Positions 8,349 to 58,957 of a DNA stretch of 64,000 nucleotides are shown here, piece after piece; positions within the stretch are counted from its first letter, which is position 1, and each line of letters begins with the position of its first letter. This DNA is from Streptomyces nigrescens (GTDB taxonomy: Bacteria > Actinomycetota > Actinomycetes > Streptomycetales > Streptomycetaceae). The translations under genes and the position numbers were made by a program. The notes beneath the pieces were generated by a model. It was not told where the DNA came from. It saw nothing but the letters and a program-made list of their open reading frames with translations, and searched no databases. The DNA is taken from assembly GCA_024349765.1 (NCBI GenBank), contig AP026073.1:8184001-8248000 (forward strand), read 5' to 3'.

Positions 8349-9542
<1,194 letters not shown>

Positions 9543-9580
9543 GACGATCCGCTCGACCTGGTAGCTCTCCGGAGCACTCC

Positions 9581-9618
9581 AAGGAGCCCCGCCCACCGCA
9601 AGGTGGGCGGGGCTCCTT
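9581..9618 (+). terminator. str operon terminator
   Basis: A perfect 17-bp stem with a GCAA tetraloop, 38 nt after the tuf stop. One of the strongest hairpins in the window. Confidence 0.92.
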
Positions 9619-9634
9619 GACAGTTGGGGGTCGA

Positions 9635-9665
9635 TTGGCCTTGGGTGCCGGGCGTATGGCACACT
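9635..9665 (+). promoter_or_regulatory. Possible S10 operon promoter
   Basis: TTGGCC at 9635-9640 and CACACT at 9660-9665 with a 19-bp spacer; the match is weak. The leader to rpsJ would be about 300 nt. The 424-bp gap 9543-9966 otherwise holds the tuf terminator, small GC-rich inverted repeats and the shared leader hairpin. Confidence 0.3.
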
Positions 9666-9881
9666 GTCCAGGTTGCTCGGTTGAGTGCCGATGCTGCGCG
9701 CCTCCCGCCGGGAGGACCGGAAGCGAGTCCCAGGTATTCGTCGTCCCTTCTCAGGGCCGGAAATACGGGAATCTTCCGGGAAGCGTCAGCGGGGTGCCTC
9801 GGCCAGGCGCCCGGTGGGTGTCCTTCCCCCGCCTCCTCCTTCTTGAGGGATCTTCCGTGCGGAGATTTACGAGAAGGGGTG

Positions 9882-9906
9882 CGACACGCCCGACCGCGTG
9901 GGTCGG
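9882..9906 (+). promoter_or_regulatory. Leader hairpin of the S10 operon, shared with the str operon
   Basis: 24 of 25 bases match 5101-5125. The CCGACC / GGTCGG stem lies 60 nt before the rpsJ start. Repetition in two ribosomal operon leaders suggests a common regulator or processing signal (inference). Confidence 0.55.
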
Positions 9907-9966
9907 AGAAGGACGCGAACCTGCCGGGTCCCAGAGCGTTACGAGAGACAGGACTACGAAGTAGCC

Positions 9967-10275
9967 ATGGCGGGACAGAAGATCCGCATCCGGCTCAAGG
10001 CCTACGACCACGAGGTCATCGACTCCTCGGCGAAGAAGATCGTCGAGACGGTGACCCGCACTGGTGCGTCGGTCGCGGGCCCGGTGCCGCTGCCCACTGA
10101 AAAGAACGTGTACTGCGTCATCAAGTCGCCGCACAAGTACAAGGACTCGCGCGAGCACTTCGAGATGCGCACGCACAAGCGCCTGATCGACATCCTCGAC
10201 CCGACGCCGAAGACCGTTGACTCCCTGATGCGACTCGACCTCCCGGCCGGTGTCGACATCGAGATCAAGCTCTGA
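9967..10275 (+). CDS. rpsJ: 30S ribosomal protein S10
   Basis: Small-subunit head protein, also the NusE antitermination factor, 102 aa. [19 protein letters not shown] at the start and DIEIKL at the end are typical. The frame is open upstream, but the ATG at 9967 gives the family length. First gene of the S10 operon. Confidence 0.99.
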
Positions 10276-10293
10276 GGGTCGGTGATCTGAGAG

Positions 10294-10938
10294 ATGGCTA
10301 AGCAGATCAAGGGCATCCTGGGCGAGAAGCTCGGTATGACGCAGGTGTGGGACGAGAACAACCGTGTTGTTCCGGTCACCGTCGTCAAGGCCGGGCCCTG
10401 TGTCGTTACCCAGGTGCGCACCAATGACCAGGACGGTTACGACTCCGTCCAGATCGCCTTCGGCGAGATCGACCCGCGCAAGGTGAACAAGCCCCTCAAG
10501 GGCCACTTCGCGAAGGCCGACGTCACCCCCCGCCGTCACCTCGTCGAGGTCCGTACTCCCGACGCCGGTGAGTACACCCTCGGCCAGGAGCTGACCGCTG
10601 AGACCTTCGAGTCCGGCGTCAAGGTGGACGTGACCGGCAAGAGCAAGGGCAAGGGCTTCGCCGGTGTCATGAAGCGTCACGGCTTCGGCGGCGGCAAGGC
10701 CTCGCACGGTGCCCACCGCGTGCACCGCAAGCCGGGCTCCATCGGTGGCTGCGCCACCCCGGGCCGCGTGTTCAAGGGCATGCGGATGGCCGGCCGTATG
10801 GGCAATGAGCGGGTCACCACCCAGAACCTGACCGTCCACGCCGTTGACGCGGAGAAGGGTCTGCTGCTCATCAAGGGCGCAGTTCCTGGTCCGAACGGCG
10901 GCCTCGTCCTGGTCCGTACCGCGGCCAAGGGGGCCTGA
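10294..10938 (+). CDS. rplC: 50S ribosomal protein L3
   Basis: Early 23S-binding protein near the peptidyl transferase centre, 214 aa. It has the [15 protein letters not shown] start, the central [21 protein letters not shown] loop and the [16 protein letters not shown] segment. It follows rpsJ by 18 bp in the S10 operon. Confidence 0.99.
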
Positions 10939-13485: not shown

Positions 13486-14303
13486 TGGGCCAGAAGGTAA
13501 ACCCGCACGGGTTCCGGCTCGGCGTCACGACGGACTTCAAGTCCCGCTGGTACGCCGACAAGCTGTACAAGGACTACGTCAAGGAAGACGTCGCCATTCG
13601 TCGCATGATGACGAAGGGCATGGAGCGCGCCGGTATCTCCAAGGTGGAGATCGAGCGCACCCGTGAGCGCGTCCGCGTTGACATCCACACCGCTCGCCCG
13701 GGCATCGTCATCGGCCGCCGCGGCGCCGAGGCCGACCGCATCCGCGGTGAGCTCGAGAAGCTGACCGGCAAGCAGGTCCAGCTGAACATCCTCGAGGTCA
13801 AGAACCCCGAGACCGATGCTCAGCTCGTGGCCCAGGCCGTCGCCGAGCAGCTGTCCTCCCGCGTCTCCTTCCGTCGCGCCATGCGTAAGAGCATGCAGTC
13901 GACGATGAAGGCCGGCGCCAAGGGCATCAAGATCCAGTGCGGTGGCCGTCTCGGCGGCGCCGAGATGTCCCGCTCGGAGTTCTACCGCGAGGGCCGTGTG
14001 CCCCTGCACACCCTCCGTGCGAACGTCGACTACGGCTTCTTCGAGGCCAAGACCACCTTCGGCCGCATCGGCGTGAAGGTCTGGATCTACAAGGGCGACG
14101 TCAAGAACATCGCCGAGGTGCGCGCCGAGAACGCCGCGGCCCGTGCGGGCAACCGCCCGGCCCGTGGTGGCAACGACCGTCCGCGTCGCGGTGGCGAGCG
14201 CGGCGGCCGCGGCCGCAAGCCGCAGCAGACCGCCGCTGCCGAGGCCCCCAAGGCCGAGGCCGCTGCCGCTGCTCCGGCGGAGACCCCCGGAACGGAGGCC
14301 TGA
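13485..14303 (+). CDS. rpsC: 30S ribosomal protein S3
   Basis: mRNA-entry protein with helicase activity, 272 aa. The KH domain carries [21 protein letters not shown]. The C-terminal 55 or so residues form an Arg/Gly-rich then Ala/Pro/Glu-rich tail, giving a length above E. coli S3 (233 aa), as in other streptomycetes. Coupled to rplV by a one-base overlap. Confidence 0.99.
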
Positions 14304-14308
14304 CCGAC

Positions 14309-14728
14309 ATGCTGATCCCTCGCAGGGTCAAGCACCGCAAGCAGCACCACCCGAAGCGCAACGGCATGGCCAAGGGTGGCACCGAGCTGGCCTTCGGTGA
14401 GTACGGAATCCAGGCCGTCACCCCGGCCTACGTGACGAACCGTCAGATCGAGTCCGCTCGTATCGCGATGACCCGTCACATCAAGCGTGGCGGCAAGGTC
14501 TGGATCAACATCTACCCGGACCGCCCGCTGACGAAGAAGCCTGCCGAGACCCGCATGGGTTCCGGTAAGGGTTCCCCGGAGTGGTGGGTCGCGAACGTCA
14601 AGCCCGGTCGGGTGATGTTCGAGCTGTCCTTCCCGAACGAGAAGGTTGCTAAGGAGGCGCTGACCCGCGCCGCCCACAAGCTTCCGATGAAGTGCCGCAT
14701 CGTTCGGCGCGAGGCAGGTGAATCGTGA
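14309..14728 (+). CDS. rplP: 50S ribosomal protein L16
   Basis: Large-subunit protein that organises the A-site region, 139 aa. It begins [19 protein letters not shown], with [19 protein letters not shown] in the middle, which is diagnostic. The ATG at 14309 lies 5 bp after rpsC with GGAGG upstream. Confidence 0.99.
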
Positions 14729-14952
14729 TGTCGGCCGTTACCAAGGCGTCCGAGCTGCGCGAGCTGAACAACGAGGACCTCGTTGCGAAGCTCCGTGAGG
14801 CCAAGGAAGAGCTGTTCAACCTCCGCTTCCAGGCGGCGACCGGACAGCTCGAGAACCACGGCCGGCTGAAGGCCGTCCGGAAGGACATCGCCCGGATCTA
14901 CACCCTGATGCGGGAGCGCGAGCTCGGCATCGAGACGGTGGAGAGCGCCTGA
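14728..14952 (+). CDS. rpmC: 50S ribosomal protein L29
   Basis: Small two-helix protein near the tunnel exit, 74 aa. The ATG at 14728 overlaps the rplP stop in TGATG; a GTG three bases earlier is also possible. [22 protein letters not shown] carries the family signature across its two helices. Confidence 0.97.
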
Positions 14953-15236
14953 TGAGCGAGAAGAATGTGACTGAGCAGAAGACCGAGCGCGGTTTCCGCA
15001 AGACCCGTGAGGGTCTGGTCGTCAGCGACAAGATGGACAAGACCGTCGTCGTCGCCGTCGAGGACCGCGTCAAGCACGCGCTGTACGGCAAGGTCATCCG
15101 CCGTACCAACAAGCTCAAGGCGCACGACGAGCAGAACGCTGCCGGTGTCGGCGACCGCGTCCTCCTGATGGAGACCCGGCCGCTGTCCGCCACCAAGCGC
15201 TGGCGCATCGTCGAGATCCTCGAGAAGGCCAAGTAA
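14952..15236 (+). CDS. rpsQ: 30S ribosomal protein S17
   Basis: Primary 16S-binding OB-fold protein, 94 aa. [20 protein letters not shown] and [19 protein letters not shown] are diagnostic. Last gene of the S10 operon; it overlaps rpmC by one base. Confidence 0.98.
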
Positions 15237-15240
15237 TCCC

Positions 15241-15261
15241 TCCTAGGGGGACCCCCTAGGA
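15241..15261 (+). terminator. Hairpin at the S10-spc junction
   Basis: TCCTAGGGGG and CCCCCTAGGA are perfect inverted arms one base apart, 5 nt after the rpsQ stop. A second stem, GGCGAGAGGCG (15279-15289) with CGCTTCTCGCC (15301-15311), follows and contains one G-U pair. They may partly terminate the S10 transcript. Confidence 0.5.
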
Positions 15262-15340
15262 ACAGTTCCGCCAGGCTCGGCGAGAGGCGCGAAGCACTCG
15301 CGCTTCTCGCCGGGAACCGGCAGACATTCAGGAGATAGAC

Positions 15341-15709
15341 GTGATCCAGCAGGAGTCGCGACTGCGTGTCGCCGACAACACTGGTGCGAAGGAGATCCTT
15401 TGCATCCGTGTTCTCGGTGGTTCCGGTCGCCGCTACGCGGGCATCGGTGACGTCATCGTCGCCACCGTCAAGGATGCGATCCCCGGTGGCAACGTGAAGA
15501 AGGGTGACGTCGTCAAGGCGGTCATCGTTCGCACCGTCAAGGAGCGCCGCCGTCCGGACGGCTCGTACATCCGCTTCGACGAGAACGCGGCCGTCATCCT
15601 CAAGAACGATGGCGACCCCCGCGGCACCCGCATCTTCGGCCCCGTGGGCCGGGAACTGCGCGAGAAGAAGTTCATGAAGATCATCTCGCTCGCGCCGGAG
15701 GTGCTGTAA
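15341..15709 (+). CDS. rplN: 50S ribosomal protein L14
   Basis: Subunit-interface protein, 122 aa, usual length. [20 protein letters not shown] is the family start; the initiator is GTG with AGGAGA at 15330-15335. First gene of the spc block, after a 104-bp structured gap. Confidence 0.99.
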
Positions 15710-15712
15710 CCG

Positions 15713-16036
15713 ATGAAGATCAAGAAGGGCGACCTGGTCCAGGTCATCACCGGTAAGGACAAGGGCAAGCAGGGCAAGGTCATCCAGGCCTTCCCCCGCG
15801 AGGACCGTGTTCTGGTCGAGGGTGTCAACCGGGTCAAGAAGCACACCAAGGCCGGACAGACCGCTCGTGGTTCGAAGACCGGCGGCATCGTGACCACCGA
15901 GGCCCCGATCCACGTGAGCAACGTTCAGCTCGTGGTGGAGAAGGACGGCAACAAGGTCGTCACCCGCGTCGGGTACCGCTTCGACGACGAGGGCAACAAG
16001 ATCCGCGTTGCCAAGCGGACCGGTGAGGACATCTGA
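15713..16036 (+). CDS. rplX: 50S ribosomal protein L24
   Basis: Assembly initiator protein, 107 aa. The KOW motif is [20 protein letters not shown] near the start. It begins 3 bp after rplN and overlaps rplE by one base. Confidence 0.98.
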
Positions 16037-26221: not shown

Positions 26222-26349
26222 GTTCGACCGGCAGGGGTCCGGGAGCCTTTCCCGGGCCCCTGCCGTGTGCATCTTCCGCGGGGCGGCCGCCTCGTGGGAA
26301 CTGACACCGGTACCTGATACGGCCGGTGCAGCAATGAAGGAGATACACC

Positions 26350-47696: not shown

Positions 47697-48902
47697 TCAG
47701 ACCTCGTCCGCCGGGTGCCCCAGCAGCATCGTCGGCGCCCCCGCGACCCGGGTGAGGAAGATCGTGCAGGAATTGCCGCCGCCGGCCAGCTTCAGCTTCT
47801 TGCGCAGCTCCTCGGGCTCCACCGCGGACCCCCGCTTCTTGATCACCGCGACGCCGGCCCCGCGCTCCCGCAGCAGCGCCTTGAGCCGCTTGACGTTGAA
47901 CGGCAGCACATCGGTGATCGCGTAGGCGGTGGCGAAGGGGGTCGGGCGCAGTTCGTCGGCGGTGACGTACGCGATCGTCGGGTCGATCAGCCGCCCGCCG
48001 ACCTGCTGGGCGACCTCCGCGACGAGGTGGGCGCGGATGACGGCGCCGTCCGGCTCGTACAGGTAGGGGCCCACCGGACCGGGCTCCGGGTCCGGCAGAC
48101 CGGCGCCGAGCAGCGAGCCCCCACCGGGCAGCAGCGTGGCCCGGCGCCCGCCGGCCACCGGCCCGTCGCCCCCGCCGGGCCGGCCGAACCACACCACCGC
48201 CTCCTTCACCTCGCCCCCGTAGGAGATCCACTCCGTCTCGGCGTCCTCGGGCAGCGCCTCGTGCGGCACCCCCGGCGCGATCTTCAGCGCCGCGAACGGG
48301 GCGGTACGGGCCGCCTCGACGGCCCACGACAACGGCGGTGAGTACGCCTCCGGATCGAAGATCCGGCCCCCGCGCGCCTTGGTGCGGCGCGCCGGGTCGA
48401 CGAACACCGCGTCGTACCCGGCGGTGTCCACCTCCGTCACGTCCGCGCAGCGCACCTCGATCAGCTCCGCGAGCCCCAGCGCCTCGGCGTTCGCCCGCGC
48501 CGCCGCGCAGGCCAGCGGGTCCCGGTCGACGGCCAGCACCCGGATCCCGGCCCGCGCCAGGGCCAGCGCGTCACCGCCGATCCCGCAGCACAGATCGGCC
48601 AGCGTCCGCACGCCGAGCCCGGCCAGCCGTGCCGCGCGGTGCGCGGCGACCGAGGCGCGGGTGGACTGCTCGACCCCGTTCGGAGTGAAGTACATCCGCT
48701 GCGCGTCGGCCCCGAACTTCGCGGCCGCCCGCTGCCGGAGCCGCGCCTGGGTGAGCGCGGCGGAAACGAGCGGTGCGGCATGGTCCCGCCGCAGCCGGGT
48801 GGCTGCCGCCAGCTCGTCGGCGGGGTCGTGGTCCCGCAACTCCTGAAGCAGCGCTTGGCCCTCCGGGCCTAGGAGGGCGACGAAGGTGTCGAGGTCATTC
48901 AC
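47697..48902 (-). CDS. Class I SAM-dependent methyltransferase with THUMP-like C-terminal domain
   Basis: 401 aa from GTG 48902 (MNDLDTFVALLGPEGQALLQ). The frame is open to 48983, but that extension is read from repeat element 1 and is not credible. SAM motif I is LADLCCGIGGDALALA, motif II VDRDPLA and motif IV FVDPARRT. The C-terminal part, near LPFNVKRLKALLRERG and VIKKRGSAVEPEELRKKLK, matches the THUMP-like domain of RNA methyltransferase relatives. RNA is the probable substrate (inference). Confidence 0.85.
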   Translation of the reverse strand: MNDLDTFVALLGPEGQALLQELRDHDPADELAAATRLRRDHAAPLVSAALTQARLRQRAAAKFGADAQRMYFTPNGVEQSTRASVAAHRAARLAGLGVRTLADLCCGIGGDALALARAGIRVLAVDRDPLACAAARANAEALGLAELIEVRCADVTEVDTAGYDAVFVDPARRTKARGGRIFDPEAYSPPLSWAVEAARTAPFAALKIAPGVPHEALPEDAETEWISYGGEVKEAVVWFGRPGGGDGPVAGGRRATLLPGGGSLLGAGLPDPEPGPVGPYLYEPDGAVIRAHLVAEVAQQVGGRLIDPTIAYVTADELRPTPFATAYAITDVLPFNVKRLKALLRERGAGVAVIKKRGSAVEPEELRKKLKLAGGGNSCTIFLTRVAGAPTMLLGHPADEV

Positions 48903-48914
48903 GGAGTCATTGTC

Positions 48915-49484
48915 GCTTCCCACGTACCCGTCTTTCCCGCCGCGGGGCTTGCTCGCCGTTGCGCGCTTGGCGGCGCCTCCCACGTACTTGGCTGTCCCGC
49001 CGCGGGTCGTCTCGCCGTTGCGCCTGCGGCGGGCTGGGTTGTTTGTGGGTGCGGTGACGGGCCTCCGGGGCCGGTTGTGTGGACTGCTGACGCTTTACGT
49101 CCACACAACCGGCCCCTCCGGCCCGTCCCCTCCCGTGAGAGGGAAAGTTAAGGACGGTGGGGGTGCACGTAGTGCCGACGTGCGCGCGGGCAACAGAGCA
49201 CGCCCGCCCCCAACCAGCTCTTACCTCCCACTCACGGGAGGGGGTGGACCGGAGGACGAAGTCTGGAGGGCCGGCACCGCACCCAAAACACAAACGCCCG
49301 CCGCCAGGCGCAACGGCGAACAAGCCCCGCGGCGGGACGGCCAACTACGTGCGGGGCGCCGCAAAGCGCAACGGCGAGACGAACCGCGGCGGGACAGACG
49401 GGTACGTGCGAGGCGCCGCAAAGCGCGCAACGGCGAGCGAGCCCCGCGGCGCCGCAGACGGGTACGTGGGAGGACAGCCAAGCG
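48915..49484 (+). repeat. Composite palindromic repeat element, copy 1
   Basis: About 570 bp between the 5' end of the methyltransferase and the 3' end of the SEDS gene. The core (49047-49284, 238 bp) has 20-bp terminal inverted repeats, GGGTGCGGTGACGGGCCTCC and a right end matching 18 of 20. Inside is an 18-bp perfect stem, GGGGCCGGTTGTGTGGAC (49067-49084) with 49099-49116, loop 14 nt, and a CCCCTCCCGTGAG / CTCACGGGAGGGG pair. The arms hold two units to the left and three inverted units to the right, each about 60 bp with CCCACGTAC, CCCGCCGCGGG and CGCCGTTGCGC. No gene is supported inside. Copy 2 is at 58457-58957 in the opposite orientation. Confidence 0.9.
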
Positions 49485-50903
49485 CTAGCGGACCGGTTCG
49501 CGTCGTCGCTGGGCGTGGTCGCTGATGCGCAGGAGTACCGCCACCATCACCCAGTTCGCGACCAGCGACGAGCCTCCCTTGGCGAGGAAGGGGAGGGCCT
49601 TGCCCGTGAGGGGGATGAGGCCGGTGACGCCGCCGGAGACGACGAAGACCTGGAGCAGCAGCGCGCCGGCGAGGCCGACCGCGAGGAGTTTGCTGAACGG
49701 GTCGCGGGCGGTCAGCCCCACCCGCAGGCCGCGCTGGGCGAGCAGGACGTAGAGCATCAGGACGGCCATCACCCCGGCGAGGCCCAGTTCCTCGCCGACG
49801 GTGGTGAGGATGAAGTCGCTGTTGCCGGCGAAGCCGACCAGCTCGGGGTGGCCCTGGCCCAGCCCGGTGCCGCTGATGCCGCCGCTGCCGAAGCTGAACA
49901 GTGCCTGGGCGAGCTGGTCGGACATGAACTCCGCCCTGCCCTGTTTGGTGAACGCGCGCATCGGGTCCAGCCAGGCGGTCACCCGGCCGTGCACATGCGG
50001 TTCGAGGGAGCCGACGACAGCCGCGCCGACGACGGCCATCAGCAGACCGCACACCACCCAACTGGTGCGGCCGGTGGCCATGTAGAGCATGATCACGAAG
50101 ACGCCGAAGAAGATCAGCGAGGTGCCCAGGTCCCGCTCGAAGATGAGGACCATCAGGCTGATCACCCAGATCGTGAAGATCGGGCCGAGCTGCCGCCCCG
50201 GGGGCAGCTGGACGCCCATGACGCGGCGGCCGGCCAGCGCCAGCGCGTCGCGGTTGACCGTGAGGTAGCCGGCGAAGAACACCGAGATCATGATCTTCAC
50301 GAACTCGCCGGGCTGGAGCGACAGCGGCCCGAGCAGGATCCACCGCTTCGCGCCGTACATGTCCGCGCCGAAGAAGGCCGGTGCCATCAGGAGCACCAGC
50401 GCCACCGCCATCGTCAGGTAGATGTAGCGCTGCAGGATGCGGTGGTCGCGCAGCACCAGCAGGATGACGATGCAGACCGCCACCCCGATCACCGTCCACA
50501 CCAGCTGCCCGCTGGCCGCCTCGGCGATCTTCGGATGGCGGGTCTGGGCGTACGTGAGGTCCAGGCGGTGCAGCAGGACCAGGCCGATCCCGGTCAGCAG
50601 CGTGGCCAGCGGCAGGATCAGCGGATCGGCGCGCGGGGCGAAGCGGCGCAGGACCAGGTGCGGGACCAGCGCCACGAAGACCATGCTGACCGCGAATCCG
50701 GGCAGCCCGCCGGGCAGCCGGCCGGTCATCGACAGGCCGGTGTACGCGTAGCCGAAGACGGCGATCGCGACGACGAGGGCGAGCAGCCGGGCCTCGGTCC
50801 TCCGGCGGTTCGGTGCCTGGGCGAGCGCCGCGAACGTCATGGTGCGTTCGGCATCGCTCTCCGGCTCCCCGGCCGCCCGGGAAGCGCTGGTCAGTCCACG
50901 CAC
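49485..50903 (-). CDS. SEDS-family protein (FtsW/RodA-type glycosyltransferase)
   Basis: 472 aa, about ten membrane helices. SEDS motifs are seen: GAKRWILLGPLSLQPGEFVK, the R-x-x-AWLDPMRAF loop with the expected acidic residue, SGGISGTGLGQG and NSDFILTTVGEELG. These polymerise lipid II glycan with a partner class B PBP; no such gene is adjacent. The GTG at 50903 is preferred because GGAGG lies 6 bp upstream; the ATG five codons earlier has no ribosome site. The stop lies at the edge of repeat element 1. Confidence 0.88.
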   Translation of the reverse strand: MRGLTSASRAAGEPESDAERTMTFAALAQAPNRRRTEARLLALVVAIAVFGYAYTGLSMTGRLPGGLPGFAVSMVFVALVPHLVLRRFAPRADPLILPLATLLTGIGLVLLHRLDLTYAQTRHPKIAEAASGQLVWTVIGVAVCIVILLVLRDHRILQRYIYLTMAVALVLLMAPAFFGADMYGAKRWILLGPLSLQPGEFVKIMISVFFAGYLTVNRDALALAGRRVMGVQLPPGRQLGPIFTIWVISLMVLIFERDLGTSLIFFGVFVIMLYMATGRTSWVVCGLLMAVVGAAVVGSLEPHVHGRVTAWLDPMRAFTKQGRAEFMSDQLAQALFSFGSGGISGTGLGQGHPELVGFAGNSDFILTTVGEELGLAGVMAVLMLYVLLAQRGLRVGLTARDPFSKLLAVGLAGALLLQVFVVSGGVTGLIPLTGKALPFLAKGGSSLVANWVMVAVLLRISDHAQRRREPVR

Positions 50904-50947
50904 GGGTTCCTCCGCCATCGATGGTCAGTGCCGCCGGCCGGAACCGG

Positions 50948-58456: not shown

Positions 58457-58957
58457 CGCCCACGTACCCGTCTGTCCCGCCGCGGGGCGCTGCGCTTTGC
58501 GGCGCCGCCCACGTACCTGTCTGCGGCGCCGCGGGTCTTGTTCGCCGTTGCGCCTGGCGGCGGGCGTGGTGTTGTCGGGTGCGGTGCCGGCCCTCCAGAC
58601 TTCGTCCTCCGGTCCAGCCCCTCCCGCGAGTGGGAGTTACTGAGCTGGTTGGGGGCGGGCCTGGTCTGTTGCCTGCGGGCTCGTGGGCATTACCTGCACC
58701 CCCACCGTCCTTAACTTCCCCTCTCACGGGAGGGGACGGGCCGGAGGGGCCGGTTGTGTGGACGTAAAGCGTCAGCAGTCCACACAACCGGCCCCGGAGG
58801 CCCGTCACCGCACCCGACAACCACCTGGCCCGCCGCAGGCGCAACGGCGAACAACAACCGCGGCGGGACAGCCAAGTACGTGGGCGGCGCCGCAAAGCGC
58901 GCAACGGCGAGACGACCCGCGGCGGGACAGCCAACTACGTGGGGGAAAACCCAAGCG
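58457..58957 (-). repeat. Composite palindromic repeat element, copy 2
   Basis: About 500 bp between the convergent DUF2264 and SDR genes, starting right after one stop codon and ending at the other. The core (58577-58815, 239 bp) is the reverse complement of the copy 1 core with about 15 differences by eye. The 18-bp stem is at 58746-58763 and 58778-58795, with an identical loop in reverse. Each arm has two units of about 60 bp. No gene is supported inside. Confidence 0.9.

Follow-up and report, generated by a model that had tools for sequence, protein, structure and literature searches.

The intergenic element described here is a BIME-like mosaic palindrome in a Streptomyces nigrescens genome without a resident RAYT gene, and it probably belongs to a family whose copies overwrite one another at fixed sites and leave a short mutational halo in the genes that they abut. 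The sites of the family are old and inherited, many of them lying directly beside the 3′ end of a gene, and the family probably no longer moves appreciably.

Build of the element and its copies in the genome

An earlier note, made from the letters of the window (the whole stretch of 64,000 nucleotides that was analysed), had described a 238-bp core with 20-bp terminal inverted repeats, flanked by inverted arrays of repeat units. The core is exactly 238 bp long (49047-49284) and its ends, GGGTGCGGTGACGGGCCTCC and on the reverse strand GGGTGCGGTGCCGGCCCTCC, share 18 of 20 bases; a unit scan likewise returned the claimed arrays, two plus-strand arm units on the left and three minus-strand units on the right. 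The further claim that each unit contains the same three motifs held in part: the motifs are not identical everywhere, right-hand units carrying the variants CGCACGTA and GGCGCCGCGG. The second copy reported about 9 kb away is also there, at about 58457-58944, with its core (58577-58815) in the opposite orientation; it is place 8242577 in our genome list of core ends. The whole composite measures ~570 bp, with arm units of 47 bp. Gene and unit finders were home-made, and a first unit parser, which gave seven units, was replaced. The features are as follows.

47697..48902, minus strand: gene that we take to be SAM-dependent-methyltransferase-like; its GTG start, picked by comparison with relatives, is 15 bases away from the first scanned unit and sits behind a conserved GACAAT
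48918..48964, plus strand: outer left arm unit (unit scan)
48978..49023, plus strand: inner left arm unit (unit scan)
49047..49284, plus strand: 238-bp core with terminal inverted repeats (18/20) (sequence; own-genome matches)
49069..49114, plus strand: T-half hairpin, stem GGCCGGTTGTGTGGAC / GTCCACACAACCGGCC, loop TGCTGACGCTTTAC (sequence; hairpin collection across species)
49252..49284, plus strand: E-half core end, 33 bp (46 exact genome matches)
49308..49354, minus strand: inner right arm unit (unit scan)
49366..49411, minus strand: middle right arm unit (unit scan)
49425..49471, minus strand: outer right arm unit (unit scan)
49485..50918, minus strand: gene that is presumably FtsW/RodA-like, with its stop codon 13 bases away from the last scanned unit
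From about 58457, strand not given: variant unit of the second copy (read by eye)
58507-58553, plus strand: unit of the second copy (unit scan)
58839-58885 and 58899-58944, minus strand: units of the second copy (unit scan)

By inverted-repeat search, the left arm (48918-49023) and the right arm (49366-49471) pair with 90% complementarity over 106 nt. As single-stranded DNA, positions 48915-49484 fold at -272.4 kcal/mol, compared to a mean of -154.5 (standard deviation, 5.0; z = -23.5) for 100 dinucleotide shuffles, and for DNA and RNA alike the folding energy is over 20 standard deviations lower than in such shuffles. The loop was used to collect 30 distinct T-hairpin sequences from several species, and in these at least two Watson-Crick pair types occur at 12 of the 15 stem positions; the loop takes two main forms, TGCTTCGCTTTAC (15 sequences) and TGCTGACGCTTTAC (12 sequences). 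This covariation may reflect selection on structure, or one stem arm may have been copied from the other. Left-right covariation of the arms within an element showed no excess for the innermost and second units (20 tests, none below 70/1000 shuffles), and therefore selection on the arms does not maintain full cruciforms; the idea that selection keeps the arms complementary was dropped for this reason. The earlier note had also offered a structured RNA source as one reading, and this stays a candidate that was addressed here through folding and pairing. Rfam gave no match at the element, the sole gathering-level match in the window being an L17 ribosomal protein leader RNA (RF03132) elsewhere, at 26276-26331.

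The earlier note counted two copies and looked to a genome-wide search for others. Dispersed copies are in fact numerous, which disposes of a two-copy family: the 33-bp right end of the core occurs at 53 genome places at up to three mismatches (46 exact; reversed control, 0), two of these places being the two ends of one element. All 53 lie on contig C1, the window's contig, and none on C2. A query with the core gave 40 distinct places at 89 to 100% identity, with 40 of 133 first-look candidates scored. In the regions fetched around the core-end places, two core motifs, T and E, identified 55 places, and five further stretches of the genome with an element or half-element (loci L268 to L271 and L274) were found when S. 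endophytica copies were mapped back. The core can be divided into a T half, which contains a long hairpin, and an E half; the T-plus-E form predominates, alongside some E-plus-E and T-plus-T copies and half-elements. Just 1 of the 53 core ends falls inside C1 2618355-4315988, as if this 1.7-Mb stretch, together with C2, were accessory or newer DNA that the family has apparently not colonised.

Some individual copies depart from the common build. At L078 (C1 about 3040285-3042700), a gltD-like gene lies between two half-elements of the same direction, each of which breaks off in or near the core middle. In L078, L081, L102, L257, and L258, part of the inner arm is replaced by another hairpin, which reads CTCCCCCACTGCCTGAAGGGCGTGGGAGGTACCCCC or CTCCCCCAGCTAACGCTGGGAGGTGCCCCC and occurs on either strand.

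Shared sites and placement against gene ends

The earlier note had raised recent mobility as a possibility, with clean empty sites in relatives as its sign. Of the 55 places, 53 could be mapped in the sister species S. endophytica (the two unmapped places are both half-elements at L078), and 50 of the 53 hold an element at the same site; the other three comprise two remnants and one site with none, and no clean empty site is among them, which tells against recent mobility. Forty-five places are anchored on both sides, with a mean identity of 97.9% in the flank anchors, and by core motifs 44 of these hold an element in S. endophytica; at the 45th (own position 6084633, a half-element), S. endophytica has a remnant, shortened by deletion, that breaks off inside the T hairpin. 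The other ten places include six with an element (L061, L075, L086, L089, L100, and L102), one of whose counterparts, that of L075, carries an IS-like insertion, as well as a degenerate remnant at the L097 site and other DNA, with no element, at the L101 site.

Several S. endophytica loci were noted in passing. The other DNA at the L101 site (L264, about 8839-10551) includes an apparent small toxin-antitoxin pair. An insertion with a transposase-like frame lies inside one copy, whose T half is mostly missing (L257, about 13966-15714). One half-element (L224, from about 2963) has several near-identical tandem arm units and looks like a recent tandem amplification; its S. nigrescens counterpart (L269, from about 9986) has several diversified arm units.

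Within the genus the family is patchily distributed. The core was matched in 6 of 150 genomes at E ≤ 1e-10 and the arm motif, at up to one mismatch, in 20 of 392, the S. nigrescens genome included in both counts. At least eight arm-motif matches occur in 11 of the 392 genomes (S. nigrescens, 65; highest, 87), and those in the nine genomes with one to three may be due to chance, as the backward control gives one or two in many genomes; arm-motif matches in L119, L120, and L129 were likewise judged to be chance. At up to two mismatches, where the control gives 0 to 4 in the named relatives, the arm motif occurs 52 times each in S. endophytica and S. chattanoogensis, 30 times in S. lydicus, 28 in S. 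sioyaensis, 26 in Streptomyces sp. NBRC 110611, 24 in S. kronopolitis, 16 in S. piniterrae, 13 in S. albospinus, 6 in S. netropsis, 3 in S. monomycini, 2 in S. catenulae, and 0 in S. noursei. No match was found in 50,697 phage records, and the one matching plasmid record is a 2.8-Mb Streptomyces replicon.

The site in the window itself appears to be old. An element occupies the gap separating the FtsW-like gene from the methyltransferase-like gene not only in the window but also in S. endophytica, S. lydicus, S. kronopolitis, NBRC 110611, and S. sioyaensis (where the contig begins inside the element), and each of these species has a different variant. In our reading of these gaps, the FtsW-like frame appears longer where the element is absent, the stop beside the element seems to vary by species among TAG, TGA, and TAA, and on the other side the element appears to end a few bases short of the conserved GACAAT. 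The S. piniterrae gap was rejected as an empty site, as it reads to us like a remnant of an outer arm unit; with this remnant scored as present, a quick methyltransferase tree needs two changes of the element character. When the flanks of 12 loci from other species were compared with those of our own element loci only, three shared both flanks (L245, L247, and L248) and one shared one flank (L244); another of the 12, L252, proved to be the S. kronopolitis counterpart of the site in the window.

Elements are placed unevenly with respect to genes. Neighbouring genes are convergent at 25 of the 55 places, versus 61 of the 403 remaining neighbouring pairs within these loci (p = 1e-6). Of the edges that could be scored (105), twice as many face the 3′ end of a gene (70) as face a 5′ end (35); the distance from edge to stop is 0 to 8 bp in 42 of the 70, and that from edge to start is less than 20 bp in only 2 of the 35. 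We read this placement as elements probably occupying space that is dispensable, as far as the stop codon, and staying clear of promoters.

Exchanged contents and diverged gene ends

We compared the contents of orthologous copies in one sister-species pair, S. nigrescens and S. endophytica. Over 38 T-plus-E pairs, core identity is 0.901 between orthologs, 0.910 between paralogs in S. nigrescens, 0.883 between paralogs in S. endophytica, and 0.891 between non-orthologs of the two species; the true ortholog ranks anywhere from 1 to 39 of 39 and ranks first, ties counted, in 4 of the 38. Orthologs are no closer than paralogs, and this depends on similarity, as in concerted evolution. By pairwise alignment, the ortholog is strictly closest in 2 of 43 pairs, L081 and L064, which are the copies least like the rest of the family (mean paralog identity, 0.654 and 0.819); their ortholog identities (0.948 and 0.946) are close to that of ordinary intergenic DNA (0.956). 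These two serve as an internal control, in that copies apparently too different to recombine keep their history. Between the species, coding DNA is 98.0% identical and other intergenic DNA 95.6%, versus 88.6% for the element core, and therefore core divergence is not ordinary drift, although 7 of the 80 ordinary intergenic gaps are likewise less than 0.905 identical, which counts against this conclusion.

The order of the T and E halves is reversed in 3 of 44 pairs and the type of a half is changed in 5 of 44; unit numbers match on both sides in 7 of 45. Linkage between biallelic core positions (r2) is 0.31 in S. nigrescens and 0.22 in S. endophytica at 1 to 2 bp and 0.030 and 0.026, respectively, at 41 to 80 bp, where about 0.025 is expected (1/n), and it is thus near background beyond about 40 bp. 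Within arm units, a few neighbouring positions are strongly tied and most slot pairs are tied weakly. Ortholog agreement in slots c and e (outer and inner units) is no higher than in shuffled pairs; in the outermost slot b it is 0.523 versus 0.332 shuffled (0/1000), and slot d shows weak agreement (29/1000 shuffles). Some orthology therefore survives at the element edges. In the core, with L064 left out (37 pairs) and a no-exchange level of 0.947 to 0.969, surviving orthology is 8 to 13%, and the remaining ortholog signal is small (0.9177 versus 0.9134; permutation p = 0.019). We estimate that each site may have been overwritten about 2.0 to 2.6 times since the species split.

Genes whose ends abut an element carry a halo of divergence, with an about tenfold excess of third-position change in the last ten codons of these unique genes (Fisher's test, p = 9e-29, on counts rebuilt from the divergence table). 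Counting back from the stop, third-position divergence between the species is 0.214 in codons 1 to 5 of 33 abutted ends versus 0.022 in 120 controls, 0.224 versus 0.025 in codons 6 to 10, and 0.158 versus 0.034 in codons 11 to 15, and the two sets are equal by codons 31 to 60. The stop codon itself is changed in 8 of the 33 abutted ends and in 0 of the 120 controls. In the last five codons, both synonymous-change codons (0.208 versus 0.020) and amino-acid-change codons (0.151 versus 0.027) are raised, synonymous changes outnumbering amino-acid ones; relaxed selection alone is therefore insufficient, and relaxed selection on gene tails may add to the halo. GC3 in the last five codons is 0.687 in 39 ends versus 0.891 in 295 controls and is at or near the control level from codon 16. 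In addition, similarity to the arm spacer is higher in abutted ends than in controls (p = 1e-5; shuffled spacers, p = 0.24).

These results rest on codon-based tests, as a gapless edge profile was uninformative because of indels; a unit-based edge gradient was not relied on, being inflated by missed edge units, and the codon tests use no units. In a gapless recheck, 29 of 33 ends have a third-position change in the last ten codons, compared to 22 of 109 controls. After five frameshift-like ends were dropped from the element set only, not from the controls, which works against the effect, 0 of 10,000 permutations reached the observed mean.

Explanations and relation to known repeats

The chain of events that we consider most likely would begin with the palindrome. 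Its hairpins would stall replication or be cut, which we infer to be the likely driver, and repair enzymes would then mend the damage from another of the dozens of similar copies, an ectopic exchange dependent on homology across about 60 sites. Gene conversion probably replaces cores, halves, arm units, and orientation, and the unique flanks hold each site in position. Repair would spill some 50 to 90 bp into the neighbouring gene, bringing a raised substitution rate and some overwriting by arm-spacer-like sequence. The elements might also bring some benefit, for instance as a 3′ boundary for abutted genes. A bolder version, which we think unlikely, is that this protein-free, position-locked repeat network acts as a genome-wide diversity generator and persists because each broken copy is rebuilt from another, while hairpin-driven breaks constantly reshuffle 3′ boundaries out of a common pool of modules and hypermutate or overwrite the last codons and stops of dozens of genes.

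Other explanations account for parts of the data. That elements are functional bidirectional terminators or 3′-end boundaries under selection, with exchange a side effect, is compatible with copies overwriting one another at fixed sites, and we hold it as a tentative possibility: it fits the bias toward convergent genes, the edges at stops, the strong folding, and the pairing kept in the hairpin stem, but plain harm from insertions close to promoters would produce such a bias as well, and termination alone explains neither the scrambled contents nor the halo. It is improbable that a non-autonomous mobile element of MITE or REPIN type keeps re-inserting, also into old copies, so that sites only look fixed. 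The core does end in terminal inverted repeats as a MITE does (18/20), copies are many, and the spread in the genus is patchy; the RAYT-type transposase domain Y1_Tnp (PF01797), the one family covered by our genome-wide transposase search, is present in 3 of 9 relatives, with one or two genes each in S. piniterrae, S. noursei (no arm motif), and motif-rich S. chattanoogensis (52 arm motifs). However, it was found neither in the S. nigrescens genome nor in the other six (S. endophytica, S. sioyaensis, S. lydicus, NBRC 110611, S. kronopolitis, and S. albospinus). Further points against re-insertion are the 50 of 53 sites common to the sister species, the 1.7 Mb of C1 (2.62-4.32 Mb) with one core end, the lack of any on C2, and the orthology kept by divergent copies. 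In the part of the flanks viewed by eye, no target-site duplication was apparent.

Import from other strains, with the elements as hot spots of allele exchange that mix contents and diverge the flanks, would explain the raised synonymous divergence beside elements and a transition share like that of controls (84 of 152 changes versus 55 of 104, summed from the divergence table). We nevertheless regard it as quite improbable, given that GC3 falls to 0.687 in the last five codons, off the level of other gene ends, and that the zone is only some 50 to 90 bp long. Repeats also invite assembly or sequencing artefacts, and by our reading some S. endophytica copies differ in homopolymer length; an artefact is nonetheless extremely improbable, as C1 is one contig and so is the S. 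endophytica chromosome, the halo falls within unique coding sequence with its changes concentrated at third positions, and orthology is retained by the divergent copies. We favour exchange among fixed copies.

BIMEs and REPs are dispersed intergenic palindromic units, arranged in inverted pairs, mosaic in build, and placed at gene 3′ ends; REP units measure 20-40 bp and carry a GTAG or CGTC tag, and REPIN systems are defined by their RAYT gene. The suggestion in the earlier note of a BIME-like repeat is borne out by dispersed intergenic palindromic units in inverted pairs and by the mosaic build. The family resembles BIME/REP and REPIN-RAYT systems in its inverted palindromic pairs, mosaic build, and 3′-end placement and differs from them in having no RAYT of its own and in forming a ~570-bp composite of 47-bp arm units around a 238-bp core; here, moreover, the comparison of orthologous sites directly reveals exchange from one fixed site to another. 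Neisserial intergenic mosaic elements and pneumococcal BOX elements are modular, multi-part repeats with variable unit number, and our family, compared by description only, shares this modularity and variable unit number and differs in sequence, host, and arrangement. Among the matches listed from the open-licence PMC literature, we recognised no description of this Streptomyces palindrome family.

Whether REPs evolve by gene conversion was asked in the title of a 1988 paper by Higgins and others (as cited in PMC3116915 and PMC3733652); to that question about palindromes and gene conversion, the present family brings fixed sites with exchanged contents and a built-in control of divergent copies. 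STAR elements of Staphylococcus aureus are, in the portion of PMC3532100 that describes them, modular intergenic repeats with loci stable within the species, and the authors report that these locations are not kept from one species to another and that they saw no sign of loci converting one another; our elements are modular like STAR, but their sites are shared between species and their contents are exchanged. The halo fits the repeat-induced recurrent repair (3R) hypothesis, which in the outline that PMC3114760 offers holds that repeats stall replication, recruit error-prone polymerases, and raise nearby substitution. As outlined there, 3R was inferred from the surroundings of indels and short repeats; in our case a single repeat family has a halo in unique genes, a natural and many-times-repeated assay of repeat-driven mutagenesis in bacteria, which implies that gene ends beside such repeats evolve under a different mutation regime. 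Concerted evolution in prokaryotes has been described, in the summary given by PMC6053082, for 26 genes whose paralogs are as similar as orthologs through gene conversion; the family here is non-coding, spans about 60 sites, and retains high diversity.
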